The notes under the pieces are model-generated. The model saw only the letters and a list, made by a program, of their open reading frames with translations. It was not told the DNA's origin and ran no database searches. A program made the position numbers and the translations under genes. 64,000 nt of DNA from Blepharisma japonicum (lineage: Eukaryota; Ciliophora; Heterotrichea; Heterotrichida; Blepharismidae): assembly GCA_949751835.1 (NCBI GenBank), contig CATKHK010000008.1:372001-436000 (forward strand). The letters are read 5' to 3'. This document shows, in pieces, positions 2,687-63,546 of the stretch. Positions within the stretch are counted from its first letter, which is position 1. Each line of letters opens with the position of its first letter.

Positions 2687-3994
2687 TTATATTTTAACAA
2701 TACCCTTTATATCATTGCATTTGTTTACATTGGAAAGACGTCTTGGTTTCTGATCTTCATTAATTGCTAAATTATGATTAAGAGAAATTTCGTGGACTGA
2801 GGAGCGAGAACTCCTTCCGGAAGACAAATCCAAAGAAAACCAGTCAAACTCAAGGCTTTGTTTAGCTGTCAGCCTCGCTCTGGGAACTGGTTCTGTTACG
2901 TTTAAAATCACGCTGATAAACTCTTTAGATGCTGCCCTTCACTCAAAATCATAAAAATGGACGTGGCATTCCCTATTTTTTAAAAGAATCTCATCAACGC
3001 TAGTGCCAAAGAAAGGCATTTTCCCACAGAAAAGTATGTATAATACCACGCCTATACTGAACACGTCTGCTTTTGTGTCATATACTTCTTTTCTAAGTAT
3101 TTCTGGGGCAATATAGCCAGGTGATCCGCATCTTAAACTTAAATTTTCTTTGCAATAATCGGCAATTCCAAAGTCAGCTAATTTGAATTCATAGTCGTTT
3201 AACTTAGAACTAAGAAGGATGTTTTCTAGCTTGATGTCTCTGTGAACGATATGCATTGAATCGAGGTAGCAAAGAACACCAAAAAATTTTATTGCAAATG
3301 CTCTAATGATCGCCTCAGAAAATTTCTTTTTTCGATTTATCCTCTCATATAAATTGCCACCTTCTAAATAGTCAAGAACTAAGCAAATTTCAGAGTCGCT
3401 TTCATAAACGTTGTAAAGCTTAACAATATTTGGATGGTCAAGCTTTCTCATGATATCAATCTCTCTGACTATAGACTTAATTCCGTTAGTCATTGTACTA
3501 ATTCTTGATTTTTGGATGCGTTTCACTGCAAATTTTTGGCAATTTTCTTTACTTTCAGCAAGAAAAACAGAAGCATAATTTCCTTTTCCGATTTCTCGAA
3601 TAAATACGAAATCGTCCTCAATATCGGACATGATCCCCACCTTAGCCAGATGTCCAAGTCAGACATCTAATGATTCCTGATTGTCTACATAAAAATCTCT
3701 ATAGCAATCTTTGTGCCCAACTCTGAATCCAAAGAAGCTATTTACATAATTTTCCTCTATAAATGGTTCAATTGGTTTTCAATTGACATTGGTCATCTTT
3801 TTTACCTTATGAGACCCTATCATTGATTTCAATAAAAACGAGTCAGTCAGTTGGTACTTTCTCTCTTTCAACTCCCCATTTTTTGACAGCTCAAACAGAC
3901 GGCCATTGTACAATACAGTATTATTCGAAGGCAAGTAAGGTTGCCAAAATTTGGCTGAGTTCTGTTGCAGTTCCTTGTCAGTATCACAAAACAT
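2687..3994 (-). CDS. PH-like domain + CAMK-like protein kinase (copy 1)
   Basis: Ser/Thr protein kinase, 435 aa, with three TGA codons read as Trp, one of them at 3779-3781. Residues 1-120 form a PH-like module: strands around YNGRLFEL, then NVNWKP, GFRVGHKDCYRDFYV, and a C-terminal helix carrying the typical Trp (DVWLGHL). The hinge GIMSDIEDDF leads into the kinase domain. That has a Gly loop (GKGNYASV), Lys in FAVKRI, HRDIKLEN, ADFG and CGSPGYIAPE. All catalytic residues are present, so it should be active. Family members 2-7 in this window share this layout. PH domains commonly bind phosphoinositides, so membrane recruitment is likely but inferred. The C-terminal tail is short and Ser-rich. 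The start ATG at 3992 matches the N-termini of the paralogues. Confidence 0.88.
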
Positions 3995-5912
3995 TTATTA
4001 TTATTATATTTAATCGAAACTGCTCCATAAATCTTAGTGATAAATAAATTTTATTTTATTATTTGTATAACTTAAACGCTAGCTGTGTTGAATTGATATT
4101 GGCTTTGGATTTAATTTCTTTTGTAGCATAAATTAATTTTATAATGAACTTTAAAGGTTTCAAATTAAAAGCTCTGGTTTTAAAATTTTCTCGAATTAGA
4201 GAAAATTTTTTGATTCTTTTACATGCAATCGGGAAGAAATATTTTTTAAATTTTATTTGACTGTTGATCATAAAGAGATATTTGAATTTTCCTTTAATCG
4301 AGAACTGGAACGCTGATTCAATATGGAATAGAATTCAGAATAGAGAATAAAAAATATGAAGTATAAATTTTATTAATTTGTATGAGTAGTTATGTTTTTT
4401 TTTTGGAAAACTGAAATAGAGATTTCATTAATTAGAAATTAAAGAATTATTGTGAAAATATTCTTCAAGCTCTTCCACAAAAGATATTGAGAGATTTGCT
4501 TCTTATTAGACTTTTTTATTTCTTTATGCTTTATGATTATTAAATTGAATCCTTATAATTTTTGTAATATGTCTAGCAATAATTTTTAAGGATCGCATTT
4601 TATTAGGTATATTTAATTTTTTACTATATAAAATATTATAATTTAACCATCTTTATTTTGAGATACAGTCATCAGAATTTGCTTTTCTATAAGAAAAAAA
4701 GCATCTGATCTAGCTAATTAGTCGAAATTATTTATTTCTTTCACATTAATACTTAATATAATTTTATCAGAAATTTTTGTAATCTTATCTTAAAAGAAAA
4801 TCTTTTCAGAAAAAACCAAAAATGAAGCCATATGTCACTTGATCTGAAAATTTTAACAGTGTGACCGTTACTCCAAAAATTTTATAAGATAAGCATGATC
4901 AAAAATTTTATCAAATTTCCTGAGCAACAGTCATGTCATAAAAGCATTCTGATCAAAAATTATCCACCCAAAGATGAATAAATCAATTTAAATATTATAT
5001 CTATCAACTTGTCTAATTTTGTTGGCAAAACTTTTAATATGAAAATTTCAAAAAAGATAAAATATGATTTTTAATTTTACTCTCCGTATCTTTGATTAAA
5101 TCTCGTTATATTTTTCGATCAAAAGATGAGATTTAAAAATACTTGTAATTTTTATTGGCTTTTCGTAAGGACAGGCAAGAATTAGCAATAGAAATAAATT
5201 TATAATATGATAGCTTGATTTAATTAAAATTTGTATTAAAGTTACTTATATCAATGAAAATTGAAAAAGATTGAATTAATTTATTACTGCTTCAAAGTTT
5301 AATCCTAATATGCTGATATCTATATAATTGACCATATTAATATAAGAAATATTATGAAAATTAAGAATCAAAGTACTAAACATTATATGAATGATCTAAG
5401 CTTTCTCAATGATCTAATAATTGCCATTTTACAAAGTCAAGCTGGTCTAATCAAAATTAAAGATTTTTTACAACTTAATTTATTCAAAAATTAAAGCATT
5501 TAAATTTAGAATTAATTATATGCTATTAAAAATATGATAGGATGATAGATTACACTTATAGGAATTAAAAGAGGATTATTCATGCCCTCTAAAAATCGAG
5601 CTCTATAGCTTCACACTCATATACTATCGCCATTTCCAGGGTATAAAAATGCTCCTTTAGAAATATGATCTGATATTCCATTGAGTGAAAAGCCAGGCAA
5701 TCAAAAAATCAAATCCACCTATGCTTCGAGTCCATCTAGCCCTCGACCAGGATAATTCACTTGCATTAGAGGTCGGGCAAGCCTTCACCAAAAATGACAT
5801 GCAATAAAAATATATAAAGCATTTAAAACGCAAATTATAATTCTTAATTCAGCTAAAATTATCCTCAAAAAGTATTAATATAATCTTAATCAAGTTTAAT
5901 CGCTCTAAAGCT
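3995..5912. other. Long AT-rich spacer with a GC-richer island
   Basis: About 1.9 kb separating the start of PH-kinase copy 1 from the 3' end of a CDPK gene. A 70-codon minus frame at 4059-4271 has no recognisable features and is probably chance. The only distinct part is the less AT-rich stretch near 5,575-5,800, listed separately. Confidence 0.5.
5575..5800. other. Composition island, possible gene relic or ncRNA
   Basis: About 225 bp, clearly richer in G and C than its flanks. With TGA as Trp, the minus strand holds two long runs in one frame, interrupted by one TAG. They read protein-like (for example LPGFSLNGISDHISKGAFLY). The plus strand also has a run of about 40 codons rich in Pro and Ser. 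I recognise no family. Alternatives are a decayed gene, a non-coding RNA gene or a repeat copy. No start codon and splice site combination gives a clean gene. Confidence 0.3.
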
Positions 5913-7340
5913 TTACATTTTGAGCAATCTTGCAAACTCATCATATCCAATTTTTGATCCTGGCTCCTTTCCAAACTCTTTCATTATGTTTTTTAAATCT
6001 TGCTCTTTTAACGCATGTCCAGATCTGGAAAATGCTCTTTCTATATCAATTGTCGTGATATATCCTTTTCTATCCACATCAAAATGAAGAAATGTAAGTC
6101 ACAGCTCTTCTTGCTGTATATGATGTTTTGAATAGTAAGTTGCAGCTAGAAACTCAGAATAATTAATTTTTCCATTTTTGTCCAAGTCAAGCGATTTAAT
6201 AATTTCTTTGATTTCATTCCGAGCAGTAATCGAATAATCTGTATTTTTCAAAGAACTTAACAATAGTTTCAGTGAAATACTACCGTTATTTTCCTCATCT
6301 AAATCGTTGAATAATGTATTCATGCTCTTAATTTCATTTAAACTTAAATATTTTACCAAAATATTCATGGCTTCTTTTTTAAATGCAGATATCTTGCTAT
6401 ATTCTTTCAATGCATCAACAGTAAATTGGTTCATAATAATTCTTGGCTTTGGCTGTGAGTTAAACCAAGGATGGTCCAAAGCTTCGCTTGCTGAAAACCT
6501 ATCTGAAGGATTCATACACAATAAATGTGATAACAAGTTTTTTGCTTCTTGAGAAATATTTTCTCAAATAGGTTCAGTAAATTCAGGAGCGCCATTTAAA
6601 ATTTGATGGTAAGTCTCACAATCAAATTTGGATCAAAATGGTAATTTTCCAGAAAGCATGACGAACATGATAACCCCAACACTTCACATGTCGCATTTAA
6701 AATTGTAAGCGCCTTTTATCATTTCAGGCGCTAAATAATAAACTGTTCCAACTGCTTTATGCATTGACATCCTTCTGTTTCTGAATTTCGAAGATAGGCC
6801 AAAATCTACAAGTTTTAAGGCTGCATTATCATCTTCACTTTCAAAGAGAAAATTTTCAGGCTTTAAATCTCTATGAATTATATTATTATTGTGAAGGTGA
6901 TTTATAGCTAGCAGCATTTGTCTGAGTATGATTTTGCTTTTATTTTCGTCAATGTGATCATTTTTAGTCATCATTCGCAACAGGTCTCCACCAGTGCATA
7001 GTTCCATGGCTACATATATATATTTTTCATCTTCATAGGCCTCAAAAAATCTTATGATGTTGGGGTGATCTACTCTTTTGAGGATTTCTATTTCTTGCTT
7101 TAACGAAATTATTCTATCTTCAACCAAATCTTTCAAAATAAACTTCATGGCCGCTTTTTCTTCTGACCCAATAACTTGGACTTCTTTTACAACTCCAAAA
7201 TGTCCAGTACCTAGTATTCTACCTAATTTATATATAGATCGTATTGGAATGTTTCGAATTGTGGAGGACAAACCTTCATTAAGACATAGAAGAGTATTTT
7301 CCTCTTTCACAGCGTTTTGTTTGCGAAGACAAACTCCCAT
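5913..7340 (-). CDS. Calcium-dependent protein kinase (CDPK-like), 475 aa
   Basis: CAMK-group kinase with a CDPK layout: kinase domain (about residues 35-300), junction segment (NQFTVDALKEYSKISAFKKE), then four EF-hand positions. It has the catalytic HRDLKPEN and DFG motifs. The N-terminus MGVC fits myristoylation at Gly2 and palmitoylation at Cys4, hence membrane attachment. Four Trp are written TGA (in CDMW, PFW, PIW and EELW). The second CDPK in the window has TGG at three of these sites. EF-hand 2 (DLDKNGKINYSE) is canonical and EF-hand 3 nearly so (DVDRKGYITTID). Hands 1 and 4 look degenerate. It should phosphorylate targets in response to Ca2+, possibly with fewer bound ions than usual. 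Confidence 0.9.
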
Positions 7341-8515: not shown

Positions 8516-9895
8516 ATGATCCAATCCATATTTGAGGACGAAGACAGCCAGGTCTGCGATAAGAATAAATTTTGGATGAATTGTGATAGCATCTCATCCG
8601 CACCATTATATGAAGGAATTCTTATAGAGCGTACCAAAAAAGGCCTGGTCTCAAATCTATACATATTATCAGCATCATCATTATTTAAAGCTAACCAAGA
8701 AACGTTTATTGTGACCAAATTCACAATTTTGAAGTGAAAAATAATTCAAATTTTGGTGGACGGAAGTGAAAAGGACAAGAATTACGGCTTCAGGATAGGC
8801 CATTTAGGGCTTTATCGAGACTTTTATGCCCAAAATGAAGATGACTTAAACAACTGGATAGCACAGCTGTCTAGTATAGGAATTATGACTGAAATAGAAA
8901 ACGATTACTGCATAATAGAAGAAATTGGAAAAGGGTCTTTTTCAACAGTTCAACTTGCAGTTGAAAAGGCGACTTCAAAAAAGTTTGCCATAAAGTGTAC
9001 AAGAAAATCAGATTTAGGAAAAAGAAAATATGGCTTTGAATATATGAGAAGCGAGATCGACATCATGAGGAAGTTAGATCATCCGAATATTCTTAAGCTA
9101 ATCAAAGTATATGAAGACCAAAATTCTGTATTTTTAGTTTTTGACTATATTGAAGGTGGTGATTTAAGGAGAAAAATAAGCTTGAAGAAAAAATTTCAAG
9201 AATATGAAGCAAAGCGATTAATTCAAAAATTGCTAAGAGTTATTGATTATCATGAGTCTTTGAACATTACCCATAGAGATATTAAACTAGAAAACATCCT
9301 TATGCTAGACCAGGAGGAAGATATAGATTTTAAACTTGCTGACTTTGGGTTGGCAATTGAAGCTTGTGGGGAGATAAAAGGAAGCTGCGGATCATTAGGA
9401 TATGCAGCTCCAGAGGTTTTAAGAGGAAAAATATATAATTCAAAAATAGACATTTTCAGCACTGGAATAATCCTCTATATGCTACTTTCAGGCCGTGCAC
9501 CTTTTCCAGGCAAAACCTCCAATGAAGTATTTTTAAAAAACAGAGAATGCAATATAAAATTCAAAGGAAAGAGGTGGTCAGAAATCTCCCCAGAAGCTAT
9601 TAATTTCATAAGAAAAATAACTTCATACGACCCAGATCTAAGACCAAGCGCAAAAATTGCCCTTCAAGATGAGTGGTTTGAAATGGGAAAAGACCAAAAT
9701 GATAATGAAAAATATGATAAAGATTTTTCAGATAAGCTCAATAAATTACAGATAAATCAATACTTTACTGAAAGCATCAAAGAAAACGCTGGAAATATCC
9801 TGACGAAAATAAACCAAGAATATTCTCCAGCTAAGCAGCTTATTATATTATACATAGCAAACTTTACAGCTGTAAAGGAACGATTTAAAGAATAA
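8516..9895 (+). CDS. PH-like domain + CAMK-like protein kinase (copy 2)
   Basis: 459 aa, ending at TAA 9893-9895. I chose the ATG at 8516 because the following residues (MIQSIFEDED) align with the N-termini of copies 3, 4 and 5. An in-frame ATG at 8465 would add 17 residues. The PH-like part (about 1-122) includes LYEGILIERTKKG, ILKWK with Trp as TGA 8735-8737, GFRIGHLGLYRDFY and NNWIAQL. The hinge is GIMTEIENDY. The kinase has GKGSFSTV, FAIKCT, HRDIKLEN, ADFGLA and CGSLGYAAPE, so it looks active. The C-terminal extension of about 70 residues has no known motif. It converges on the Obg gene with only 34 bp between stop codons, a typical ciliate macronuclear spacing. Confidence 0.88.
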
Positions 9896-9929
9896 ATCAG
9901 TAATTTAAATCCACTAAATCACGTATTAT

Positions 9930-11166: not shown

Positions 11167-12444
11167 TTACAAGTTAAATAGCGTCCTGGTCTCTGATGAG
11201 CAATCTTCACAGCTTGATTCTTCTGTAGTGTCATTATATTTGGATGTGTCACTTTGGTTAAAATCTGTTTCATTTTTCTTAAGTCATTCATTTTGCAGTG
11301 CTTGACTTGCAGTAGGTCTGAACTTTGGGTTAACGCTAGTTAAATCCAAAATCATATCAATTGCCACGGGAGACACTTCATCCCATATTTTTTCTTTGAA
11401 AGATATTTTGCATTCTTTGTTGCTTTGTAAAATCGATAATTTATCATCTCCTGAAAAGGGTTTTTTGCCAGATATAAGTATATATAGAACTATTCCAGCG
11501 CTAAAAATATCAGCCTTATACCCATAAGGAACTTGAGATATTACTTCTGGAGCGATATATCCAGGTGAGCCGCAATAAGTAGTAATATCTTTCTGATATT
11601 TGCAAGAAAGTCCAAAATCAATCAATTTAAAATCAAAATTATTTGAATCATTGCTCGTCATGACGATATTATCTAGTTTAATATCTCTATGCATCACTGA
11701 TTTTGATTCTAAATATTGAAGGACTTCTAAAAATTTTTTGATGAAGCTGGATGCTGCATCTTCTGAAAGTGTTTTTAAAGAAGATACCCTTTGCACCATA
11801 TTACCGCCAGGCACATAATCCAGCACAAGATAAACATATTGATTACTTTCGTAAACTTTATGTAATTGCACGATGTTAGGGTGATACAATTTCCTCATAA
11901 CTTTAATTTCTTCGAAAATTGCCTTGTACCCATATTTGGTTTTTCCTAAAAAAAGTTTGTCTATGCATTTTATTGCATAAGATTTGGAAGTTTCATTATC
12001 TACTCCTAAAAATACAACTGAAAAAGTGCCTCTGCCAATTTCTTTAATTAATGTAAAGTCATTTTCTATGTTACTCATGATACCAATTTTAGATAAAACA
12101 TCAAGTCATTTGTTTAAGCAATCTTCAGAGGGAGCATAAAACTCTCTGTAGCAGTCATCATAGCCAACTCTTAGCACAAAACTAGTGGTATTATCATTGA
12201 ATTCTATGAAAGGTTCAATGCTCTTTCATTTTAAATCACACCGTTTTGTGATTAGGTGTGTTATTTGATTTTCTTTAAACAATCTATTTTGTTCTAGAAT
12301 AAAATGATTCTTTTTTGGACCTGATTTTTTAACTTCAATCAGATCATCTTCGCATAATATTTGTGTAGGAATATGCTTGCAAGGTAGTCAAAACCTTCTA
12401 TCTTCATCAACAGTTTGGTCAGCGTAGAGAAATATTGAATTCAT
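11167..12444 (-). CDS. PH-like domain + CAMK-like protein kinase (copy 3)
   Basis: 425 aa, with four in-frame TGA codons read as Trp (RRFW, DLKW, NKW and one at 11284-11286 in the tail). Start ATG at 12442-12444 (MNSIFLYADQ) matches paralogues. The PH-like part holds GYDDCYREFY and the helix Trp (NKWLDVL). The hinge is GIMSNIENDF. The kinase has GRGTFSVV, YAIKCI, HRDIKLDN (Asp for the usual Glu), IDFGLS and CGSPGYIAPE, with all catalytic residues kept. The final 40 residues are acidic and Ser-rich (EESSCEDCSSE). It lies downstream of the second CDPK on the same strand, 253 bp away. Confidence 0.87.
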
Positions 12445-12697: not shown

Positions 12698-14116
12698 TTA
12701 CATATGTACTTTTTGGAAAACTTCCACAAACTCCCCAAGAGAAATTTGTGACTGTATATTTTTGCCAATTTCACTCATAATTTTATGAAGATGCTTGTCA
12801 TTTATTTTGTGTCCTGACCTTTCAAAAGCAACTTTTATGTCTTTTGATGTAATATAGCCTTTCTTTTCTGCATCTATATGCTGAAAAGTAAGCCATATCT
12901 CTTCATGCTGAAGATGATGCTTTGACACTACAACAGCTGCTAAAAATTCTGAATGGTTAATTTTTCCATTCTTATCAATAGCGACTGATTTCATCAATTC
13001 TTTAATTTCTTTTCTTGCGAGCTGAAATCCGGAATTTTTTAGAGCTTTATTCAGTGCTTTCATTGTAATATGTCCATTAACTTCTAAATCTAAAAACATT
13101 GAATTAAGCTCCACAATTTCGTCGACACTTAAGTATTTCACTAGTATACTCAATGCTTCTTTTTGAAAATTCGAAATTTTACTATACTCTTGAAAGGCCT
13201 TTAAGGTCGATTGATCCATATGAATTGGTTGTTTATTTAAGGAAGAAAACCAAGGGTGAGCTAAAGCTTCGCTTGCTGAGAGTCTTTGGAAAGGATTAAC
13301 ACAAAGGAGCTTTTTTAATAGGTCTTTAGCTTCAGCTGAAATGCTTTCCCATATTTTGTCTTCGATATTTATATCTCCTTTTTCAATTTGTTTGTAAATT
13401 TCGCATTCAAATTTTGAATGGAAAGGAAAATTTCCACTCAGCATCGCATACATAATGACTCCAATGCTCCATATGTCACATTTAAAGGTGTAGCAGCCAT
13501 TAATAACCTCTGGAGCCATATAATGAGTCGTACCTACAGCTATTCTGAAGGTATCTGATCGCCTAGTAAAGCGGCTAGAGAGTCCAAAATCTGCAAGCTT
13601 TAGCATTGCTCCTTCTTCATTTTTACAAAAAAGAAAATTAGCCGGCTTTAAATCTCTATGTACAATTTTGTTATCATGCAGATAATTCACTGCTAATAAA
13701 ATTTGCTTCAAAATAATTCTAGTTTGGTCTTCATCAAAATGCCCTGCATTAATTATTTTTTTGAAAAGGTCACCGCCACAACAATTTTCCATGACAATAT
13801 TAATGTATTGGTCATCTTCGTAGGCTTCATAAAACCTTATTACATTGGGGTGATCGAGTTTTGCCAATATCTCAATCTCTCTTCTGAGTGCACTATCCAC
13901 TCCGTGGAGAAGACTCTTCGATATTGATTTTATTGCAACCTTTATGTTACTTCCTTTAGCTTGAGCCTCTCTAACGACTCCAAATCGCCCAGTCCCTATA
14001 ACTTTGCCGAAATTATATACAGATCTTATTGGGATATTTTTGATTGTCATCGGAATTTCAAGGCTCGAAAAATCAGTCATTGTGCTGAATTGTCGTTTGC
14101 TTACATTGACGCCCAT
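12698..14116 (-). CDS. Calcium-dependent protein kinase (CDPK-like), 472 aa
   Basis: Close paralogue of the CDPK at 5913-7340, with the same order: short N-terminus, kinase domain, junction and four EF-hand positions. It starts MGVNVSKR, fitting N-myristoylation but without the nearby Cys. It has HRDLKPANF, ADFGLSS and GTTHYMAPE. All Trp codons are TGG. EF loops are more eroded than in the sister gene. Hand 2 reads AIDKNGKINHSE, with Ala at the first coordinating position. Hand 1 ends in Ala where Glu is expected, and hand 4 is unrecognisable. Ca2+ affinity may therefore be low or the regulation altered. That is inference from the sequence. Confidence 0.9.
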   Translation of the reverse strand: MGVNVSKRQFSTMTDFSSLEIPMTIKNIPIRSVYNFGKVIGTGRFGVVREAQAKGSNIKVAIKSISKSLLHGVDSALRREIEILAKLDHPNVIRFYEAYEDDQYINIVMENCCGGDLFKKIINAGHFDEDQTRIILKQILLAVNYLHDNKIVHRDLKPANFLFCKNEEGAMLKLADFGLSSRFTRRSDTFRIAVGTTHYMAPEVINGCYTFKCDIWSIGVIMYAMLSGNFPFHSKFECEIYKQIEKGDINIEDKIWESISAEAKDLLKKLLCVNPFQRLSASEALAHPWFSSLNKQPIHMDQSTLKAFQEYSKISNFQKEALSILVKYLSVDEIVELNSMFLDLEVNGHITMKALNKALKNSGFQLARKEIKELMKSVAIDKNGKINHSEFLAAVVVSKHHLQHEEIWLTFQHIDAEKKGYITSKDIKVAFERSGHKINDKHLHKIMSEIGKNIQSQISLGEFVEVFQKVHM

Positions 14117-14392
14117 TATATTTAAGAAAATTACTAAATATGGTTACTGCAATTACTGAGTTAGCTTCTGAATAATAAAGCGAAAGTCTCAAAATAAATT
14201 TTTACCATGAGTTTATATAGCAAGCAAGGCAAGAAAAATATTTCAAATTTTTTTTATTTCATTATGATTTTTAAACTATCTTAAAAATTAAAGAAAATTT
14301 AACATTTTTGACATAAATTAGTGCATTTGTGGGTTTATTTATAGAATATATATTTAAGAAACTGCTGGATTTAAATAAGATATTTAAAAAAA

Positions 14393-15757
14393 TTAAAGTT
14401 TAAAAATAGGTGAATTTGTAATGAGTGTACATTGAGACTGCTGAGAATAATACAAGATTTGCATGCTTAGATCATTCAAGCAGGTTTGATAGTCAGCTTT
14501 GCTTTCAACGAAATTGCATTCATTGCTCTTTTTTGTAAGCAAGTATGATAACGGAGACAAGTTGATTGAGTACTGATTGTTTTCCTCTTGTAATTTATGG
14601 AATATTTGGTTTTTTAAAGCATCCTTGGCTTCAGGTCTTAATCTAGGATCTTTTGTAGTAAGGTACTGAATCGTGTTGATTGTTTGAATATTAATAGATA
14701 TCCAGCACTTTTCATTGAATTGTATTTTGCAATTGAGATTTTTATTGTAAATCTCATGGGTAGTTTTACCTAAAAAGGGAATCCTACCTGCAATAAGCGA
14801 AAAAAATACTACTCCAACGCTAAATACATCAACGTTAAAGCTGTATCTCATACCCAAAAGTATTTCTGGGGCAGCATATCCTAATGATCCACATTTTTCT
14901 TCTAAGAAACCTTCACATTCAGAAGCCAATCCAAAGTCACCGAGTTTGAAATCATTATTGCTATCAGAGCTCACTAAAAATATATTTTCTAATTTGATAT
15001 CTCTATGTACAATATTAAGTGATCTCATGTACTCGACCACTTTTAATAATTTTTGAATAAGTACAATCGCATCTTTTTCCGAATATCTTTTGCATATTGA
15101 CAGTTTTTTTCTTAAATCTCCACCTTCTGCATATTCTAAAACCAAATAAACACTTTCATAGTCTTCATAGATCTTAAAAAGCTTGACAATATTAGGATGC
15201 TCGAGCCTTTTCATAATCTCTATTTCATTCAGCAGCTGTTTAATTCCATTTTTTCTGTTACACAACTCAAGCTTACTGAAGCATTTTATTGCGTGTTTTT
15301 GACCACTGGTGTTGTCAATACCTAAAAAAACTGTGGCAAATGACCCTCTCCCTATTTCACTTGCGATTAAGTAGTCCTTTTCAATATTGTCCATTATTCC
15401 TACTAGGCTTAGTTTATCAATCCATCTATTTAAATCTTCCTCATTGTCAACATAAAAAGTCTTATAATTATCTGAGTGACCAATTTTGAATCCAAATTTT
15501 AAGCTTTCTTTGTTGTCTGTAAATGGTATCACCCTTTTCCATTTAAGAATTGCCATAGTTTCAATAAGAGGTGAGCCTTGGGATAGCCTAAGCAAGCAAG
15601 TGCTGCTAAGCAAATAGTAATTCAATTTCGATCCAATTTCAGTGATTTCTATCAGATAGCCTTCATGAATAATAGGCAAGCAGACTTGATTATAAGGGAG
15701 CCAAAAGGCTCTTTCTTGGTCAAAATCACTGTCTGCCTCTGAAAATATGGATAACAT
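14393..15757 (-). CDS. PH-like domain + CAMK-like protein kinase (copy 4)
   Basis: 454 aa in a frame with no TGA. All its Trp codons are TGG, including the sites that are TGA in other copies (AILKWKR, RWIDKL). This makes it the best template for the family. PH-like region about 1-120 (IHEGYLIEITEIG, GFKIGHSDNYKTFYV). Hinge GIMDNIEKDY. Kinase about 130-390 with GRGSFATV, HAIKCF, HRDIKLEN, GDFGLA and CGSLGYAAPE. The tail of about 60 residues has no recognised motif. It should be catalytically competent. The substrate is unknown. Confidence 0.9.
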   Translation of the reverse strand: MLSIFSEADSDFDQERAFWLPYNQVCLPIIHEGYLIEITEIGSKLNYYLLSSTCLLRLSQGSPLIETMAILKWKRVIPFTDNKESLKFGFKIGHSDNYKTFYVDNEEDLNRWIDKLSLVGIMDNIEKDYLIASEIGRGSFATVFLGIDNTSGQKHAIKCFSKLELCNRKNGIKQLLNEIEIMKRLEHPNIVKLFKIYEDYESVYLVLEYAEGGDLRKKLSICKRYSEKDAIVLIQKLLKVVEYMRSLNIVHRDIKLENIFLVSSDSNNDFKLGDFGLASECEGFLEEKCGSLGYAAPEILLGMRYSFNVDVFSVGVVFFSLIAGRIPFLGKTTHEIYNKNLNCKIQFNEKCWISINIQTINTIQYLTTKDPRLRPEAKDALKNQIFHKLQEENNQYSINLSPLSYLLTKKSNECNFVESKADYQTCLNDLSMQILYYSQQSQCTLITNSPIFKL

Positions 15758-16904: not shown

Positions 16905-18458
16905 TTAAGTAACATCATTTCAATCAAATAAGTTATTTCTCCCTTCAAAGATAGAAAGATATGTTTCTAAGCAAGCTTCAAATTTATAACACTTTTTATG
17001 CAGGCTTTCTTGGCAAAATGAACAAAAACATGACTGACAGTAATTGCAGCGAATAAAATGTGGCATTAAATGTTTACTTAAAATGGAGTTTTTTGATTTT
17101 TCCTTGCAGTCTGGACATACACTGCATTTGCGTCGCCATACTAGTTTAAAAATTTGCAAAACACAGTCTTGTGATAAACCTAGATCTCCATGAATTATTC
17201 TTTTCAAATCTATAACTCCTGGGCATATGACACATAATAAATTTTGAGGGTTATTTTCAGCGGAGACTCTAAATTCCACATATTTTTTCATACATTCTTT
17301 ATGATATTTATGTTTGCATTCCAACTCAAAATAATCCTCATCAATAAAATTGTTGCAATACACACATTTTTCTTTGATTTCTGACTTGCTTTCTTCTTGA
17401 ATTGGCGTATATGAATCAAAATTTTGAGAAATATCCGCATAGCTAATTTCGCTTACTGAAAGAAAAGAATAATTTTGGCTTCGCCTTTCAATAGTTGATT
17501 CTCTTGATCCTAATTTAGGTTCTATATTTATAGGAGCTGTAGGCAGTATTATAGTTGTTGCATCATGTGCCAAAGTTTGAAATGAATCAATTTTCAAGGA
17601 CTGAATTATTACATATAATTCATATGCAACATTTTGCATGCTTGGCCTTTTGTTTTCATCGAATATCATCATTGATCTTATTAAATTTTTTAGCTGTGGT
17701 TGGTAGCCTATGTTTTCTATTATTTCAAAGTTTTCATTTATAGAGGCCATGATATCTGATTCTTTCTTTCAACGGAAGTCTATGCCAGTTTGAAGAATCA
17801 TTGTCTCAAAAATAGTTTTTCCGAATGCTCATACGTCGTCTTTTGCAGGATCAATACTTTTTGTTTCAGTTATACCTACCCCGAACTTGCTAATAAGATT
17901 AGGAGACATATAAAATTCTGTTCCGATAACTGTGTTAGAACTTCTTGTACTTAATGATTCATTTCTAGAAGCTCCAAAATCACCAAGTTTGAATATTTCG
18001 ACATCAGATACAAAAATATTGTCTGGCTTTATATCACGGTGATATATTTTTAAATTATGGAGCCAAGCAAGCGCCTCAGCTAGTCAATAAAACTGCCAAG
18101 CAATGAAGGAATATGAAAAATGTATTCCTTTTTCTTTTTGCTTCTCAATGTAGTTAGTTAGCGATCCTTTTTCGCAGAATTCCATAAAAATTCATCTGTT
18201 AATGCTATTTCGAATGTCATGGTAATATTTTACAATCGCCCTATTGTTTTGACTTGCTTCTTTAAGCATTTTAATTTCTTTTTTGAACTCATAATCTGTT
18301 ACATTCATTAGCCCTTTTAATATTGCTTTTCTCGGGAGTTCAAGTCCAGGCAGCCATCTATTAAAGCTAACAACTCAGATGTAAGCACCTTCAGTACTTG
18401 CATATGCAATTTCTCTTGTAAAATCTTGATAATAATCATCTATTTCCTCAGATTCCAT
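16905..18458 (-). CDS. Protein kinase fused to a RING-IBR zinc module
   Basis: 517 aa with six TGA-encoded Trp. Residues 1-255 are a kinase domain: Lys in RKAILKGL (about 48), Glu61, HRDIKPDN (140-147) and GDFGAS (159-164). The Gly-rich loop is poor (STEGAYIWVV) and the APE motif is SPN. Residues 364-500 are zinc-binding. A RING-like part has CVYC, CKHKYHKEC and CVIC. An IBR-like part has CSVCPDC, CNYC, CFCSFC and HKKC. No second RING with a catalytic Cys follows, so this looks like RING1-IBR only. The last residues are LFDWNDVT. A Ser/Thr-rich linker joins the two halves. A role coupling phosphorylation to ubiquitin transfer is inference. I know of no named family with this architecture. Confidence 0.82.
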
Positions 18459-18651
18459 ATTAGAATCTCGAAATTTTGACAGCAAAGTTATATTTTATAA
18501 ATTCAGATTATTCTAATGCTTAACCTTAAAATATCAATCTAAACTGAAAATTCGATTTATATATGCAGCATTTATCCTCTAAAATATTGATTGATTGGTA
18601 TGCTTTAATCAAGAAAATATTACATAAAAATTAAATAATAGAGCTAAATTA

Positions 18652-27225: not shown

Positions 27226-27402
27226 CAGATGGATTTGAGAAAATTAATTTTGGCTATTATGTATACACTATTATGTAGGTACAGGACAGATTTGTTGAAA
27301 ATTTAATCAAAAATGAAAACAAAAGTTCACCAATTTCCTTTTCAGATTTTTTAAACGTCTTTAAATGCATAAAAATCTTAATCTTTTCCTGAAAAATTAA
27401 AA

Positions 27403-36941: not shown

Positions 36942-37204
36942 ATTTATAGCTTGACTAATTCTGAACTCAGCCAAATAAATCAAATCCAATATATAAAAAA
37001 GGTTTAGAAATTTAAGATAAAAATGCATTGCCTCCCTTACTATTCACACAATTCAACATAAACGATCCCTTATATATACATATATAATAAAACTTAATAA
37101 TAAAATTGCTAAGATGAAAATTTAATAGAAATTCTAATAAATAAAGTATTTAAATAAAATTGTCATTATCTTTATTTAGGATAATAAATTTGAAATAAGT
37201 AAAC

Positions 37205-43200: not shown

Positions 43201-44698
43201 AACAGGTTTTTACATATACCAATTACTTAAATACTACGATGACATAATGCTAATAAAAACAATGGAATGTTATACAAAAGCAGCAACTAAATCATATTTT
43301 AAAGAAGAATATACTGCAAGTGAAAAATTAATGGAAAATGCTTATGCTTTCTTTCAGAAGTATACCTGCAATGTAGAAGTTTTATTGGAAAATGGCAATC
43401 TCATAAAAATTTATTTCATTATGCCTCCAGAATATGAAGGCTTAAGCAAAGAAATAAAAAAAAAATTCCAAAGAGATGTTGACAGAACTTCTGACCATAC
43501 AAAACTGCAGTTTTTGATAAATAAAACAGGCAAAATTATTTCAAAAATTAGGCATGAACAAGCGCTGAAACAGTTATTTTCAAAGTGTTATATATTTTCA
43601 CTCATTTTTTACAATATTTCACTATGAGAAGATATAGTTTTTTATTTGAATCTAATAGAAAATTTTGGCATTATATACTCATTTTCTTATTATGATACTG
43701 ATCCAATTCAAGAGCCATCTTTATTTTATGAAGCAAATGGAAATTCTTGAGGGTTAAATATTGATCAAACATGAATATTCCTAAAAACAATTGGAATTTT
43801 AGAAGCCGTCGCATCTTTTATCGTGCTTTGTCGTTATTTAGCCAAAGAGTCTCCTTTAATTGTCAAACAAATTGCAAAGGATTATTCTTGATCTTCTAGT
43901 AGACACAATAAAATCTCTAAACTCCTTTTAAACTTCCAGTTAATTGCTCGATCTAGCTGAAAAATATTAACTTACCCAATCATACTCTATTATCTCATTT
44001 TCCTTGTTTTTGCGATACTAGGAGTTTCAATACATCCATTTTTCTTTTCTACAAACCTTCTCATAAACATGATTTATCGCTATCCTACTATGCAACTTAT
44101 TTGCATGTCTATAAGAATTCCCTTTAAAGCGATGATATCTGCATGGATCCTAATGTTTTTAATAGTTTATATATTCGGTATAGTTGGCTACTCCCTAATT
44201 CATAGCGATTTTACTGATTATTGTCCTAGCATTCTTGTTTGCTCTATTTATATATTTGATCAAGGCTGAAAACAAAACGGTGGCATAGGAGTATCTTTAA
44301 AGAATTATGCTCCTGGCGAGCTAGACTATATAAGGCTTTTATATGATAACCTCTACAACGTTATTATTGTTGTCACAATGCTGAACGTTGTCCAAGGCAT
44401 CGTAATGGATGTTTTTGCACAGATTCGAGAAAAAAATAACAATGATATTACAGATATGAAAACCAAATGCTTTATGTGTGGACTAGAAAGAGATTATATA
44501 GAGAGGGTTACTAGCAAGTCATTTAAGCATCATATTCATTTCGAACACTGTGAATGAAACTATATTTTATATATTGCACATATTTTAAACAAAAACAAAG
44601 AAGAATATACATCAGCTGAAAATTATATAAAAGAGCTATATGAGCTTAGAGATATCAGATGATACCCATGGAGTCAGTCTTTGTCCATTAACCAATAA
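37205..44698 (+). CDS. ITPR: Inositol 1,4,5-trisphosphate receptor Ca2+ channel
   Basis: A single frame of 2,497 aa with no intron; 20 Trp are TGA and about six TGG. The N-terminal 400 residues are trefoil/MIR-like (GSLITIKIPKSSSL, GDCVWIKPS, IRIKHLSTGCYLSIGK). RIH-type helical repeats fill the middle. Membrane helices lie near the C-terminus (about 2,130-2,410), including YPIILYYLIFLVFAILGV and AWILMFLIVYIFGIVGY. The pore loop is NGGIGVSL. After it come KCFMCGLERDYIER, H..H..EHCEWNY (the zinc-stabilised C-terminal domain) and WYPWSQ. It should release Ca2+ from internal stores on IP3 binding. Oddity: the usual Asp after GGVG/GGIG is Val. Length is slightly under animal receptors (about 2,700). 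The IP3-contacting residues cannot be mapped by eye. Confidence 0.92.
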
Positions 44699-46613: not shown

Positions 46614-47032
46614 CTTTATAAGTTACTAATTTCTTGAGGAAAATATGTTGGAGAAAACTTTAATACAGCCTTGGACAACCTTTTATAAAGAGAATTAATT
46701 TATATAAAACGAATTTTAGCAGAAAAGAACCATGTGAAAATATTTATTCGATAATAAATTGATAACTGTTTTCCATAGTTGAAGAAAGTGTTAGAATAAA
46801 AAAAAAGATTCAATCGTTTTTATGAGAAACTATTTAGTAAGTAAGCAACTTGGTGGAGAAAAAATAGTTTCATAGTAAAAATATACATTTGACACTTATT
46901 TGAGAATATACACATATATTTAATATTTGCTAAAATTATCGTCTGAAATTAAATATAAGTTTAACTTTAAAGAAATAGTTCACTAATCAAAATTTATTTT
47001 TGCAGTTATTTTTGATTTTAGATATAAAATTA
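46614..47032. other. AT-rich spacer
   Basis: Upstream of transporter B and downstream of the aldehyde dehydrogenase. No gene or recognisable element. Confidence 0.55.
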
Positions 47033-49329: not shown

Positions 49330-49363
49330 TTGAAAATATTATTTAAATTATTGGCTAATTATT

Positions 49364-52603: not shown

Positions 52604-54460
52604 ATGTCAAAGAGTCTCCATACAGAAACTGAAAGGAGTAACTATGAAGAGAATTCAAATATTATTGAGAAGAATTCATTTGAAGAATCAACTCCTTCAG
52701 AGTCGGAATTGCCTAATAATGACAGTGCCCATCCTAGAGTTCAACTGGTTTGGGAAGACATTACTTATAAAGTAACCATCAATGGCAAAGAGCAAAAAAT
52801 CCTCAAAGAAGTTTCAGGATTTGCAAATCCTGGCGAATTTTTAGCAATTATGGGTGCTTCAGGTGCTGGAAAAACCACTCTTTTAAATTTGATTGCGGGC
52901 AGAATTAGTCTGAGCTCTTGCAGTAGCGGGTTAATAAAGGCCAACAATATTGATATTCATTCCTTCAACTATAAGAAAATTGCTGCATATATCACTCAGA
53001 TGGATATTTTATGGCCGACAATGACTGTAAAAGAGGCAATCATGTTTTCTGCCAAAATGAGGATCCCAGGGACTAATCTAGAAATCGAGGAAAAAGTCGA
53101 TTCAATGATCCGATCTTTACGACTTGAAAAAGTTGCTGACAATGTTATAGGTAGTGTTATGCGTAAAGGGATTTCAGGAGGCGAGCGCAAAAGGACTTGC
53201 ATTGCAATTGAAATTATCTCGAATCCAACAATCATAATTTTAGACGAGCCTACATCAGGTCTTGATAGTTTTAATGCAGAAGTGCTTATTGATCTATTGA
53301 ATGAGCAAGCACGATGCGGAAAAACAGTGATCTCCACGATTCATCAGCCAAGTACCAAGGTTTTCAATAAATTTGACAAATTAATATTATTAAGTGAAGG
53401 GTATACCATTTATCAAGGACCTGCTTCAAAATCAAGAAGATATTTCTCCAAATTAGGGTACAAATGTCCGAGGCAAGTAAACCCAGCTGACTATTATATG
53501 AGAGTCTTCCACGTAGTGAATAGATATGATATGACTGTACAAGAGCAAAACATGCTTGAGACTTTAAATCAAGCCTATGAAGAAAATAAGCCTCAAAATG
53601 ACCCAAGCTTGCTTTATCTCACCCCGATCAAAAACTCGTCAGTTTACAGTCCTAGCTTTTGAATAAAATTTACTTTATTATGCAAAAGATCATTTGATAA
53701 TGCAAAAAGGAATCCTCAACTAAGTAAAGTCAGATTTATCCAATATATCATTAACGCAACTATTTTAGATCTCTTATTTCATGATTTATCAAGCACCACC
53801 CGAGGAATTTCTGATACTAACGGAGTCTTGTTTTCTATGATCAACATTAATACCCTCCTCACTAACAACTCTTCAGCTATGACCTTCCCTATAGAAAAGC
53901 CTATCTTTATAAAGGAAACAAAGCAAGGGCTATATGGTTCTTTAACCTATTATATTGCTAAAAACTTTGCAGAGCTACCAATGCAGATTATCATTCCTAT
54001 GATGTATTCACTTATGGTATATTTTGCTTTAGGGCTTGATCTAACTGCAGCTAAATTTTTTATTTTTTACCTAATTATAATGTTAGTTCAGATGACTGGT
54101 GTTGCACTAGGGTACATCGTTGGGGCTTATGCTCCCAGCCCACCTGTAGCTATGACATTTGCTTCTCTCCTTCCTAACGGATTAATGCCTTTCGGAGGAT
54201 TGTATGCACATCTAGGCAATATTAACAAGGCTTTCAGCTGAATTCAATATATTTCCCCGTTTGGTTGGGCGTTCAAATCATTGACAATAAATCAGTACAG
54301 AGGGAACACTTTTGATTGCAGTCCATCTTGCGATCCTTTGAACAGATTTGGATTTCATGACCCTTTGTGGGAAGATATCATAGGTCTTCTGGCAATAATG
54401 CTAGGATATAGAATTTTTGCATATCTTGTACTGAGACTCGGAATAAGAAAAATGCATTAG
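52604..54460 (+). CDS. ABCG half-transporter (C), first of tandem pair
   Basis: 618 aa, ending at TAG 54458-54460; two Trp are TGA (53660-53662 and 54239-54241). NBD: Walker A GASGAGKTT, signature ISGGERKR, IIILDEPTSGLDS and TIHQPS. Membrane part: about six helices (for example LMVYFALGLDLTAAKFFIFYLI). C-terminal DCSPSCDPLNRFGFHDP. Very like copy D just downstream on the same strand: shared FANPGEFLAIMG, YITQMDIL, YQGPASKSRRYFSKLGYKCPR. They are probably a recent tandem duplication with about 0.7 kb between them. Confidence 0.92.
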
Positions 54461-55157: not shown

Positions 55158-57008
55158 ATGGCAAAGGTAGTAGGTCAAGAAGAGACTGATAAAGGAGACT
55201 TTGAAGACAACTCGAATAGAGACAAGAAAAATCCGAAATTTGATTCAAATCCTTCAGAGTCAGAGGCTTTGAATCCAAACGGCTCTCTTCAAAAAGTTCA
55301 GTTGACATGAGATGATGTTAACTATAGGGTAACTATCAACCATAAAGAACAAGAAATACTCAAAGGAGTCTCAGGTTTTGCAAATCCTGGAGAATTTCTA
55401 GCTATCATGGGTTCGTCAGGCGCAGGAAAAACGACTCTTCTTAATCTGCTCGCAGGCAGGATTAATCCAAACTCTCGTAGCTCTGGAACTATAAAAGTAA
55501 ACGACATAGACATTCAATCATTCAATTACAAGAAAATCACTGCATATATCACTCAAATGGATATTTTATTGCCAACTATGACAGTAAGAGAGTCAATTAC
55601 GTTTTCTGCCAGAATGAGGATCCCAGGGACTGAGCAAGAAATTAAGGAAAAAGTTGACACAATAATGGCGGCATTAAGGCTTGAAAAAGTGGCTGAAAAT
55701 ATCGTAGGGAGTGTCATGCATAAAGGGATTTCAGGAGGAGAACGCAAAAGAACTTGTATTGCAATTGAAATTATTTCGAATCCAGCAATCATTATTTTAG
55801 ACGAGCCAACGTCTGGACTTGACAGTTTTACAGCAGAAGTGCTAATTGATTTACTTAATGAGCAAGCGCGCAAAGGAAAAACTGTCCTTTCCACAATCCA
55901 CCAGCCAAGCACAAAAGTTTTCAATAAGTTTGATAGATTGATTTTACTTTCTGAGGGTTACACAATATATCAGGGGCCTGCGGTAAAATCAAGGAGATAT
56001 TTCTCTAAATTAGGATACAAATGTCCTAGGCACGTAAACCCCGCTGACTATTATATGAGAATGTTGCATGTAGTCAACAGATATGATAAGACTGAAGAAG
56101 AACAAAATATGCTTGATAGACTTAATGAAGCTTACAAACAAAATGAACAAAAGAATGACTCAAACTCATTGTATCTTACACCAATAGAAAACTATTCAGC
56201 ATATAGCCTTAATTTTCGTTCAAAAATCGCTTTGCTATGAAAGCGATCATTTGTTAACGCAGCCAGAAACCCTATGCTTAGCAGAGTGAGGATTATTCAA
56301 TATGTAATTAACGCAACTCTGGTCGACCTTTTATTCCATGGCTTATCAGAAACCCAGCGAGGCATTCTTAATACCAATGGAGTTTTATTTTTTACTATAA
56401 ATATTTCTATCATCTTAACCAACAACTCCTCAGCACTGACTTTCCCTTTAGAAAGACCTATATTTTTAAAGGAAATAGGGCAAGGGCTATATGGCTCAGG
56501 GATCTACTATGTAGCTAAAAACCTTTCAGAGTTACCTATGCAGATTATTGCTCCTTTGATCTATGCACTTATGACTTATTTTGCGTTAGGACTTGACCTA
56601 ACAGCGGCAAAGTTTTTTACGTTTTTTGCAATTTTAATGCTAACACAAATGTCAGGGGTTGCGCTTGGATACTTGGTCGGAGCGTCTACTGACAATGTAT
56701 TATTGGCTCATGCTTTTGCTGCACTTATTCCTAGTGGGATGATGATTTTTGGAGGGATGTATGGGAATTTAGAAAGCATGAATAATGCGTTTAGCTGAAT
56801 CCAATATATTTCACCGTTTAGCTGGGCGTTTAAATCTTTGACGATAAACCAGTATAGAGATAACAGCTTGGATTGCAATTGCGATCCTTTGGACAGACTT
56901 GGCTTTCATGATCCACTATGACAAGATATCATATGTCTTTGTGCCTTAATGCTAGGATATAGAATTCTTGCTTATGTTTTATTGAGATTAAGTTTGAGAA
57001 AAAAGTAA
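55158..57008 (+). CDS. ABCG half-transporter (D), second of tandem pair
   Basis: 616 aa, start ATG 55158 (MAKVVGQEETD), stop TAA 57006-57008. TGA Trp occur at QLTWDDV, LLWKRS (56238-56240), FSWIQY and LWQD. It has the same domain order and motifs as copy C: GSSGAGKTT, ISGGERKR, LDEPTSGLDS and TIHQPS, then six membrane helices. The N-terminal 50 residues are acidic and differ most from copy C, while NBD and membrane domains are close. Probable lipid or small-molecule exporter. Confidence 0.92.
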
Positions 57009-59512: not shown

Positions 59513-60793
59513 ATGTCAGTATTTGAAAAACAAGACGAATTAGCAAGAGAATCAAATAAATTTTGGGAAGCTGCAGCTAATTTTCCAGAATCAATCATAA
59601 TATTCAGAGACCAATTATATGAGAAGCCAAAAAATAAAGAAAAAAAGTTAATTGAGGCTATAATCACCAAAGACTCTATTATTAAAATAAGTAAGAATTA
59701 TTACTTCAAAGCAGCCTCAATAAGTTGGAAATTAGTTACTCCTTTTATAGAAGAACAAAATGGTGAAACTTTTTATGGTTTTACACTTGGATATAAAAAT
59801 TGCAACCGTGATTTTTATGTAAATAATGAAATTTCATTAAACAACTGGATTAACCATCTCCAACAAATCTGCATCATGACAGATTTTGACAATGATTTTG
59901 TCATTATTAAAGAACTTGGAAAAGGGAACTTTTCCAAAGTTTATCTCGCAGTCAACTGTTTAACAAAAATGACATACGCAGTCAAAGCAATAAGCAAAGA
60001 AACCCTCTTTGAGAATTCTGTCAATTTTGTAAACCAAATTAACGAAATATCCTTATTAAGAAAAATGAGTCATCCAAACATTATTAAACTTCACATGGTT
60101 TATGAGAATGAAGCCTATATACATTTGGTTTTAGACTATTGTGAAGGTGGGGATCTCTATCAAAAAATAATCAAGAAGAATACTTTTTCTGAAGCAGAAG
60201 CTTCAATAATTGGTGCCAAGATGCTTAATATTTTAGAATATTTAGAGTCATTACACATCGTGCATAGGGATATTAAGTTAGAAAATATTCTGTTGACGTC
60301 AAAAGATAGTGTAGATAACTTTATGCTTGCTGATTTTGGGTTGGCAGAAGAACTAAAAGAAGAATCAACAAAAAAGTGTGGTTCACCAGGCTATGTAGCT
60401 CCTGAAATTTTAAGAAATCATTCTTACAGCTATAAAGTTGATATATATAGCACAGGAATTGTTCTATACATTCTGCTGTCAGGTAAAATGCCTTTCTTCG
60501 GAAAAAATAACAAAGAAATACTCATAAAAAACAGAGAAGGAGTAGTTAACTTTCACAACCAAATTTGAAAAAATAAATCAAAAAATGTAATTAACGCTAT
60601 TCTGAAACTTACAGAAACTATACCAGAATTTAGACCAAATCCTAAAGAAGCCTTAACTCTTCCCTTTTTTAAGTGTGTGGATATAAATAGCAATTCAGTG
60701 TGCAAATTAGACAGCTTAGACATGGATTTAGGCATCGACCGAACTCAAAATGAGCCTATTGTTTTACTATTAAACAATAGCCATAAAAAGTAA
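59513..60793 (+). CDS. PH-like domain + CAMK-like protein kinase (copy 6)
   Basis: 426 aa. Start ATG 59513 (MSVFEKQDELAR) fits the family; stop TAA 60791-60793. The PH-like part has FWEAAANFPES, ISWKLVTPFIEEQ, GFTLGYKNCNRDFYV and NNWINHL, with Trp mostly TGG. One TGA Trp is at 60566-60568 (NQIWKNKS). Hinge CIMTDFDNDF. The kinase has GKGNFSKV, YAVKAI, HRDIKLEN, ADFGLA and CGSPGYVAPE, so it is likely active. It is the upstream neighbour of the pseudokinase copy 7 on the same strand. Confidence 0.87.
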
Positions 60794-62337: not shown

Positions 62338-63546
62338 ATGTCAACGTTTAGACAAGTTAATAAGCAATGTCAAGGCTCTTATGATTTTTGAATGCCATGA
62401 TCTTTTTTAAATGCCAGTGAGTGCTTTAGAAGTAATATGATTTACGAGTCTAAATCAGGGAATTTGAAATCAGTAGCTATTTCACTAGTTAAAAATTTTC
62501 TCGTTAAAATCAATCACAGCAATGTCTGCAAAATAACTAATCTTGAGTGAAAATCCCTTATGTCATTGCAAGAAGGAAAAGAGATTCTTAAATGGTACGG
62601 CTTTTCAGTTGGCCACGAAAACTGCAAAAGAAATTTTTATGTTGAAAGTCTTGAGCTGTTACAAGCATGAGTTAGTTTTCTCTCTCCGATTTGTGTTTTA
62701 ACTACTTTTGATGAAGATTTTAAAGTTTTAAAAAAAAATTTTGATAATCAAACCTCAGATCTTTTTTTCCTCGTTGCGAACACTTTAAATAGAAAAGAGT
62801 ATTCTGTTAAATCAATAAGCAGATTGAACTTGGATGATGACCAGATAAAATCAAATAATCTTCTTATACGTGAAATAAAAATAATGAGAAAAATTGATCA
62901 TCCAAATATTGTCAAACTCCATTTTGTATATGAAAGTCCAACTCATATATACTTAGTTTTTGATAATTTAGAGGGAGAAACATTATTTTCAAGAATTCTC
63001 AGCAAAAAAAACTTAGAAGAAAAAACGGTTGCAAATTTTGCTATTAGATTATTAGATACGCTGAAATATTTAAGCGATATTAATGTTGCTCATCGTGGCA
63101 TCAAGTTAGAAAATATTTTAATGACATCGAAAAGCAATGATTACGATTTCAAATTAATTGATTTCGAACTTGCAACAGAAAGTAATGAGAATCCTCAAAT
63201 TGAATGTGGGTCTCCTGGATATGTAGCACCGGAAATATTAAGGAGGCTTGATTTTAGCCCCAAAGTTGATGTATTCAGCGCTGGGGTTGTCTTTTATATT
63301 TTGTTATGCGGCAAAATGCCATTTTATGGAAGAAATTTAGCTGAAATCCTTCGTAAAAATAGAAACTGCATTGTTTCTTTCAATCATAAAATATGAAAAA
63401 GCATATCCAAGAATGCCATAAATTTCATTTTGAAATTAACTGATTCTAATTCTAACTCAAGACCCTCAGCAAATGATGCATTAAATGACCGCTGGCTTCA
63501 GCAGCAAATAGATAACAGACCTATCAACCTTGTCAAGTTTAGCTAG
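62338..63546 (+). CDS. PH-like domain + pseudokinase (copy 7)
   Basis: 402 aa, start ATG 62338, stop TAG 63544-63546, several TGA Trp (YDFW, PW, LEW, QAW and after FNHKI). The PH-like part keeps GFSVGHENCKRNFYV and the helix Trp. The kinase fold is intact (EYSVKSI, IMRKIDHPNIVKLH, CGSPGYVAPE) but catalytic residues are lost. HRD is HRG (GGC at 63097-63099), DFG is DFE (residue 277), and the Gly-rich loop is gone (KVLKKNFDNQTSD). It should not transfer phosphate. The frame is undamaged across 402 codons and surface motifs are conserved, which argues for a retained scaffold or allosteric partner rather than decay. Confidence 0.85.

Follow-up and report, generated by a model that had tools for sequence, protein, structure and literature searches.

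We analysed a 64,000-nucleotide stretch of the Blepharisma japonicum genome (hereafter the window; C8:372001-436000 of an assembly of 45.2 Mb in 224 contigs) and found that it carries seven genes, K1 to K7, whose products place a predicted PH domain directly before a CAMK-group kinase domain. They are members of a family that counts at least 70 copies genome-wide. Our favoured reading, to which we give about even credence as a whole, is that PH domain and kinase would form one rigid unit, that the ligand of the PH domain would set the place or the activity of the kinase, and that diversification of PH binding would lie behind the expansion of the family.

A first-pass annotation of the window had listed seven PH-kinase genes, and all seven held up. 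With TGA read as tryptophan, their open reading frames (ORFs) run uninterrupted over 402-459 residues. All seven products matched Pfam Pkinase (E 1.2e-54 to 4.4e-71) and none gave a Pfam EF-hand match at E<=1. The seven copies align over PH, junction and kinase, end to end except for their tails. Their pairwise identities are far above chance: 32-44% over the full length, 24-41% in the PH region and 39-52% in the kinase. The consensus motifs proposed for the family recur at the junction and in the kinase, yet in their literal form they are present in fewer copies (GIM(S/T)xIExD(Y/F) in three of seven, HRDIKLEN in five and CGSPGY in five). An eighth, partial copy had been suspected at 63743. 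We extended this sequence by 1000 bases past the window edge and found only a weakly cyclin-like ORF (Pfam Cyclin, E 0.017, 16 bits against a cut-off of 21); a scan of 247 residues at E<=0.1 gave neither a kinase nor a PH match, which rules out a family member at this position. The next member found starts at C8:437979, ∼2 kb past the edge.

The seven genes contain 18 TGA and 19 TGG codons and end in TAA (six genes) or TAG (one gene). TGA encodes 20/70, 30/65 and 24/70 of the tryptophan-bearing sequences at three conserved tryptophan columns of the family. Because TGA occupies tryptophan columns that are conserved family-wide, TGA is tryptophan in the host of these genes. A code in which TAA and TAG encode glutamine was ruled out, since the seven genes terminate in these codons and TGA encodes tryptophan. 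The GC content of the window is 27-36% (4-kb steps). As far as the accessible part of the source goes, UGA as tryptophan and introns of 15-16 bp were reported for Blepharisma stoltei (PMC9942806).

The N-terminal domain was tested with profiles and with structure prediction. Pfam PH did not reach its cut-off of 25.1 bits in any of the seven window copies: K4 scored 19.8 bits as a whole protein (E 0.0011) and 22.1 bits as an isolated N-terminus, K2 gave an E of 0.09, and K1, K3, K5, K6 and K7 gave no match at E<=1. Genome-wide, 13 of the 70 copies exceed the cut-off. For alignment and profile we used 65 of the 70 N-termini, leaving out five that are long or carry insertions; 39 of these 65 match Pfam PH at E<=1, and in a PDB search their profile ranked PH-bearing proteins first (lowest E 0.0015 for a chain and 0.017 for a stretch). 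AlphaFold predicted seven strands and a C-terminal helix both for full-length K1, modelled from the seven-row alignment (mean predicted local distance difference test score, pLDDT, 77.6; predicted template modelling score, pTM, 0.77), and for the N-terminus of K4 (mean pLDDT 79.2, pTM 0.70), the two models being built on the same seven sequences. A Foldseek search with the K4 model returned 50 PDB chains at E<=0.001. In 43 of these the title mentions a PH domain (PEPP1, Btk, PLEKHA7, Slm1, dynamin and others); the remaining seven (dynamin tetramer, centaurin alpha-1, 4xoh, 3nsu) are presumably PH-bearing as well. The tryptophan of the PH C-terminal helix is present in all 70 copies. Profile, fold and the 70 copies together rule out a chance likeness, and the models support a PH fold for the N-terminal domain, as the first-pass annotation had proposed.

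We then asked to which group the kinase domain belongs. The best 60 of 2690 PDB sequences matched by the K1 kinase were CAMK-group kinases, apicomplexan CDPKs first, if our assignment of the PDB matches to CAMK or AGC is right. Membership of the AGC group, which includes Akt, was ruled out on the kinase domain: no AGC kinase is among these best 60. Among the 50 Foldseek matches listed for the whole K1 model, most are CDPK, CaMKII or DAPK structures; a few Aurora kinases and four Akt structures also appear. These comparisons support a CAMK-group kinase domain that appears closest to apicomplexan CDPKs.

The glycine loop, the lysine, the glutamate, the HRD aspartate and DFG are kept in 65 of the 70 copies, K1-K6 included, although two of the 65 have another residue for the HRD arginine. 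By motif, K1-K6 and most genome copies are thus predicted to be active kinases. The CAMK-like domain had been described as catalytic throughout the window, which does not fit K7: this copy reads DNQTSDLF at the glycine loop and HRGIKLEN in place of HRDIKLEN, and has DFE for DFG, while the rest of its fold and its ORF are intact. A copy on C1 also fails several motifs (GTSHSSNL at the glycine loop, HRDIQ, DCE). K7 and the C1 copy are therefore the two predicted pseudokinases of the family; C44 (DFN), C3:807k (DFS) and C19:1k (SSGEDTTI) deviate in a single motif each. The loss is probably specific to K7 itself because its nearest relatives on C3 keep the catalytic motifs intact. Over the kinase part, nonsynonymous divergence (dN) between K7 and C3:774k is 0.34 and synonymous divergence (dS) is 1.93, a dS near saturation, so that the comparison gives a hint of constraint on K7. 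We consider that K7 probably works without catalysis, for example by partnering its active neighbours or serving as a decoy for them.

How large is the family? Genome searches with the N-terminus of K4 or of K6 returned an identical set of 70 loci, which we treat as a lower bound; a divergent member used as query returned 64 loci, none new on inspection. On reading, all 70 loci, on 31 contigs, show a PH region followed by a kinase; two of them (C75 and C4) have an in-frame stop, which in the C4 copy is accounted for by a 15-nt GT...AG intron. The local expansion proposed by the first-pass annotation is real and its copies are clustered (43 of 70 in 13 clusters with gaps <=10 kb), but it is larger than the window suggests, with at least 70 members and not seven or eight. 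The expansion may be lineage-specific. The genome-wide phylogeny that had been suggested as a check was run on kinase domains. The careful version of the tree holds 82 domains, three of 85 (C75, C4 and C19:1k) being left out, and a quick tree takes in all 85; in the careful tree, 67 core rows form one clade (100/99).

Copies in the window and adjacent to it pair with copies on C3 in matching order, reversed. K4 pairs with C3:806k (100/99), K5 with C3:800k (100/100) and the copy at C8:437k with C3:772k (93/91), while K7 groups with C3:774k and 776k (98/89). In the kinase tree, K1 and C3:807k are near each other without being sisters, and no partner on C3 was seen for K2, K3 or K6. Genes for ABC half transporters occur between K5 and K6 and likewise at C3:793-798k. 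These relationships partly fit a roughly collinear block duplication between the C8 array and C3. Full collinearity is contradicted by the intervening gene at 27382-28443, whose best relatives are on other contigs, and by four C3 copies (779-788k) that are nearest to copies on C30 and C160. Because K4, K5, K7 and the 437k copy are paired with C3 and the ABC genes are common to both places, the PH-kinase array is probably older than the block duplication. One-to-one pairs across contigs were also seen elsewhere (C22/C6:803k, C45/C6:397k, C24:16k/C6:619k, C17:158k/C79 and C67/C9:466k). The dS was >=1.5, up to saturation, in four of the five pairs (all but C67/C9:466k were tested); such pairs are possibly traces of an old genome-wide duplication.

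We next turn to the connection between the two domains. The proteins start ∼30 residues upstream of the PH domain, with an N-terminal segment that usually holds S-I-F and with an F-W pair before the PH domain that is invariant in 70 of 70 copies. In 67 of 70 copies, 24 residues separate the PH-helix tryptophan from the kinase glycine loop, and in K7 the distance is 25. It is 89 and 61 in C3:774k and C3:776k (L073), where the stretch between the two domains is longer by 65 and 37 residues; no other copy departs from the 24-residue spacing by more than a single residue. Entropy over the ten junction columns is 1.52 bits, against 1.76 for the kinase and 2.39 for the PH body, which makes the junction better conserved than either domain. 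In both AlphaFold models, a two-residue strand follows directly after FW (18-19 and 20-21) and another short strand lies in the junction (121-122). The invariant FW and these short strands after FW and in the junction suggest that the N-terminus clasps the junction. Together with the near-constant spacing, this leads us to favour a rigid unit, in which the PH domain would gate the kinase or determine its place.

What could the PH domain bind? The canonical phosphoinositide motif is KXn(K/R)XR; many PH domains are without it and it is not required for membership. In this family the motif is incomplete in most copies. At the position that we take to be equivalent to Akt K14, 3 of 70 copies have a basic residue and 39 an acidic one, and the final 105 residues of the N-terminal part carry a net charge of -1.3 on average. 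The earlier proposal of a lipid-recruited family is thus not borne out by the motif. Because most copies are without part of the canonical phosphoinositide site, we favour diversified PH binding, more than catalysis, as the probable driver of the expansion. The PH domain would then serve mainly as an integral module for regulation or partner binding, while some copies would still read lipids. Its ligand could be a membrane but would more often be a protein or the N-lobe of the kinase itself, and would set the place or the activity of the adjoining kinase, as in CDPK7 but without the N-terminal EF-hands.

Several points weigh against this proposal. Both beta-2 positions are basic in 25 of 70 copies, single positions near the motif are basic more often (the first of the beta-2 pair in 45/70 and beta-3 in 42/70), and PH domains are able to bind phosphoinositides outside the canonical motif. 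An S or T occupies one position of the activation segment in 37 of 70 copies, and phosphorylation could be the main switch instead. Moreover, our case for the rigidity and for the FW-junction pairing comes from conservation and secondary structure. In an alternative that seems rather unlikely to us, the PH domain would be a classical phosphoinositide reader that brings each kinase to a membrane, and different copies would prefer different lipids. The 25 copies with both basic beta-2 residues speak for it, as do textbook KKRFF-type beta-2 strands in several dispersed copies. Similarly, in the accessible part of a report on the apicomplexan kinase CDPK7, TgCDPK7 interacts with phosphatidylinositol 4-phosphate (PI4P) and phosphatidylinositol 4,5-bisphosphate (PI(4,5)P2), and the PH-lipid interaction matters to the location of PfCDPK7 (PMC7909640). 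On the contrary, the prevailing acidic residue at the K14-equivalent position, the negative mean charge and the fact that K1 is the sole window copy with both beta-2 basic residues all argue against lipid reading as the general function.

The same genome encodes a second type of PH-kinase with an N-terminal EF-hand part (EF-PH kinases). An EF-hand+PH+kinase query matched six loci over its full length, the query included. An EF-hand-like stretch lies upstream in all four loci whose sequence was read, across a 15-nt intron at one common position in three genes and as a Pfam EF-hand in the intron-less one; at C39, C16:148k and C111, PH and kinase matches occur together (by match only). The four EF-PH kinases, read by eye, combine a PH domain and a CAMK kinase with the same 24-residue spacing as the core family and differ from it by the EF-hand part, a CGTLGY activation segment and the absence of F-W before the PH domain. 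They form a separate clade in the careful kinase tree. Because the tryptophan-to-glycine-loop spacing is equal in both types, we favour a single fusion behind the 70 core and the EF-PH kinases. We hold it quite unlikely that PH domains were fused independently to different CAMK/CDPK kinases in the 70 genes and in the EF-PH genes, with a convergent likeness to CDPK7. Such separate fusions are compatible with the support of only 87/56 for the family and EF-PH clades together (Shimodaira-Hasegawa approximate likelihood-ratio test, SH-aLRT, 92 in the quick tree). They also agree with approximately unbiased (AU) tests that did not reject a grouping of the family with classical CDPKs (p-AU 0.171) or with kinase L008 (0.095), or of the EF-PH kinases with CDPKs (0.209). 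However, a grouping with the CaMK-like pair L002/L007 was weakly rejected (p-AU 0.036), the shared spacing is left to coincidence, and the EF-PH query, with its PH domain at 157-253, has an alignment to core copies that spans much of the PH domain and continues into the kinase (e.g., query 171-379 at C3:783k).

We hold it very unlikely that the expansion is for the most part a neutral turnover of tandem duplicates by birth and death, with degenerate copies such as K7 as pseudogenes. The clustering and the in-frame stops of C75 and C4 (the latter explained by an intron) speak for it, yet the K7 ORF is intact over 402 codons, its dN and dS hint at constraint, and catalytic motifs persist in 65 of 70 divergent copies. 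Extending the favoured reading, we can tentatively draw a wider picture, unlikely to be right in all its parts, of a heterotrich panel of ∼70 kinases. An ancient PH-CAMK kinase would have shed its calcium-binding part, its PH domain would be mostly non-lipid and clasped to the kinase via FW and the GIM junction, and the copies, dead ones included, would differ mainly in what their PH surfaces recognise, forming a signalling repertoire in one large cell.

The seven genes share the window with other genes (Table 1). The two classical CDPKs group with kinase L005 in the tree and not with the PH-kinases. The ABC half transporters, presumably ABCG-like, have close relatives at C3:793-797k, C3:699-703k and C3:740-744k and are part of the C8/C3 paralogous block. 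A 2499-aa inositol-trisphosphate/ryanodine-receptor-like channel with RIH, MIR and ion transport domains is encoded at 37199-44695 (+). The gene at 27382-28443 (+) encodes a cysteine-rich protein of 354 aa whose C-terminal end is hydrophobic and which has no Pfam match at E<=1e-5; with 101 genome matches, itself included, it is part of a large family that has no name and may consist of surface proteins. At 16908-18494 (-), a kinase precedes a stretch that resembles a RING domain (zf-C3HC4, 20.5 bits against a cut-off of 21), an unusual pairing if real.

Table 1. PH-kinase genes of the window, other window genes, and EF-PH kinases elsewhere in the genome (window positions unless a contig is given).
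Feature	Position	Strand	Details
K1 PH-kinase, 435 aa	2690..3994	-	stop TAA 2687-2689; PH 3638-3916; junction GIMSDIEDDF 3608-3637; kinase 2837-3604
K2 PH-kinase, 459 aa	8516..9892	+	PH 8603-8878; junction 8879-8908; kinase 8912-9679; activation segment CGSLGY
K3 PH-kinase, 425 aa	11170..12444	-	PH 12085-12360; junction 12055-12084; kinase 11281-12051; HRDIKLDN
K4 PH-kinase, 454 aa	14396..15757	-	PH 15401-15673 (Pfam below cut-off); junction 15371-15400; kinase 14600-15367; CGSLGY
K5 PH-kinase, 442 aa	29856..31181	+	PH 29940-30212; junction 30213-30242; kinase 30246-31013; partner copy at C3:800k
K6 PH-kinase, 426 aa	59513..60790	+	PH 59597-59869; junction 59870-59899; kinase 59903-60670
K7 predicted PH-pseudokinase, 402 aa	62338..63543	+	intact ORF; PH 62419-62691; kinase fold 62725-63498; changed glycine loop 62740-62769, HRG 63091-63114, DFE 63157-63174
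Non-family, weakly cyclin-like ORF, 5' part	63743..64000	+	248 aa; continues beyond window edge (C8:435743-436486)
Classical CDPK	5916-7340	-	kinase and C-terminal EF-hands; interleaved with K1-K4
Classical CDPK	12701-14143	-	kinase and C-terminal EF-hands; interleaved with K1-K4
ABC half transporter	31391-33271	-	one of four related; Pfam match
ABC half transporter	44742-46622	-	one of four related; Pfam match
ABC half transporter	52604-54457	+	one of four related; Pfam match
ABC half transporter	∼55284-56990	+	one of four related
EF-PH kinase	C3:42k		sequence read
EF-PH kinase	C15:438k		sequence read
EF-PH kinase	C20:308k		sequence read
EF-PH kinase	C56:184k		sequence read
EF-PH kinase	C83:66k		by match only
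EF-PH kinase	C130:53k		by match only

Ciliate kinomes are very large and their expanded families are mostly uncharacterised. The family described here is a countable case: it has a single architecture and a fixed junction in 70 or more copies, shows duplication both in tandem and as a block, and includes two predicted pseudokinases; by itself, it reveals no new principle. In the accessible part of the Ichthyophthirius genome paper, Akt, AktR, NDR, CAMK1, CAMKL and CDPK are among the expanded ciliate kinase families (PMC3341644). Our literature search, by titles and the starts of abstracts, found no description of this family; a preprint on the Stentor kinome by Reiff and Marshall (2017, title only) may well cover PH-kinases, and we make no claim of a first report. 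The main text of the apicomplexan kinome paper PMC3239843 contains none of the terms "PH domain", "pleckstrin" and "CDPK7". Searches seeded by kinase motifs gave no prokaryotic relative with the PH-kinase architecture among the best 80 of 473 contig relatives, whose matches begin at query residue >=96, at most the end of the PH domain, and no viral one (two of 53 viral stretches encode a relative, over kinase residues only).

The first-pass annotation held that known PH-containing kinases differ from the window copies in domain order or kinase group, and that finding the architecture common in other eukaryotes would speak against a lineage-specific family. The first statement is not supported, and the second is partly answered, in view of cases from an oomycete and from apicomplexans. 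In the part of the Phytophthora infestans paper accessible to us, PITG_08008 has a PH domain between EF-hands and a CAMK-group catalytic domain; the latter is closest to that of PITG_06259, which also bears a PH domain and whose domain order is unstated there (PMC3019232). Compared by description, PITG_08008 resembles the window copies in its PH domain just before a CAMK-group kinase and differs by its N-terminal EF-hands. The table of that paper lists nine PH-bearing kinases over the AGC, CAMK and CMGC groups, versus ∼70 in one family here.

The apicomplexan CDPK7 proteins (TgCDPK7, PfCDPK7 and SnCDPK7) carry a PH domain directly before a CAMK-group kinase, as far as the accessible parts of two papers go (PMC7909640, PMC5371900). 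TgCDPK7 has two N-terminal EF-hands and a long linker (PMC7909640), and SnCDPK7, classed as CAMK1, is the sole CDPK of its species without a detected EF-hand (PMC5371900). By description, the window copies are like CDPK7 in their PH domain immediately before the kinase and unlike TgCDPK7 in having no N-terminal EF-hands. Because the architecture resembles that of the medically relevant CDPK7, a free-living ciliate could be used to study the role of a PH domain next to a CAMK kinase. Classical CDPKs share the CAMK-group kinase domain, with the best PDB likeness, whereas their EF-hands are C-terminal and the two in the window have no PH match. Akt/PKB, which we take to be an AGC kinase, also has a PH domain followed by a kinase, and its structures are the sole ones aligned over both domains among the 50 Foldseek matches listed (four rows, 389-401 columns). 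However, the root-mean-square deviation of 16-18 A over both domains indicates a different arrangement. Taken together, these comparisons place the PH-then-CAMK architecture among those already known, and what stands out in the Blepharisma family is its large expansion and the predicted pseudokinase K7.

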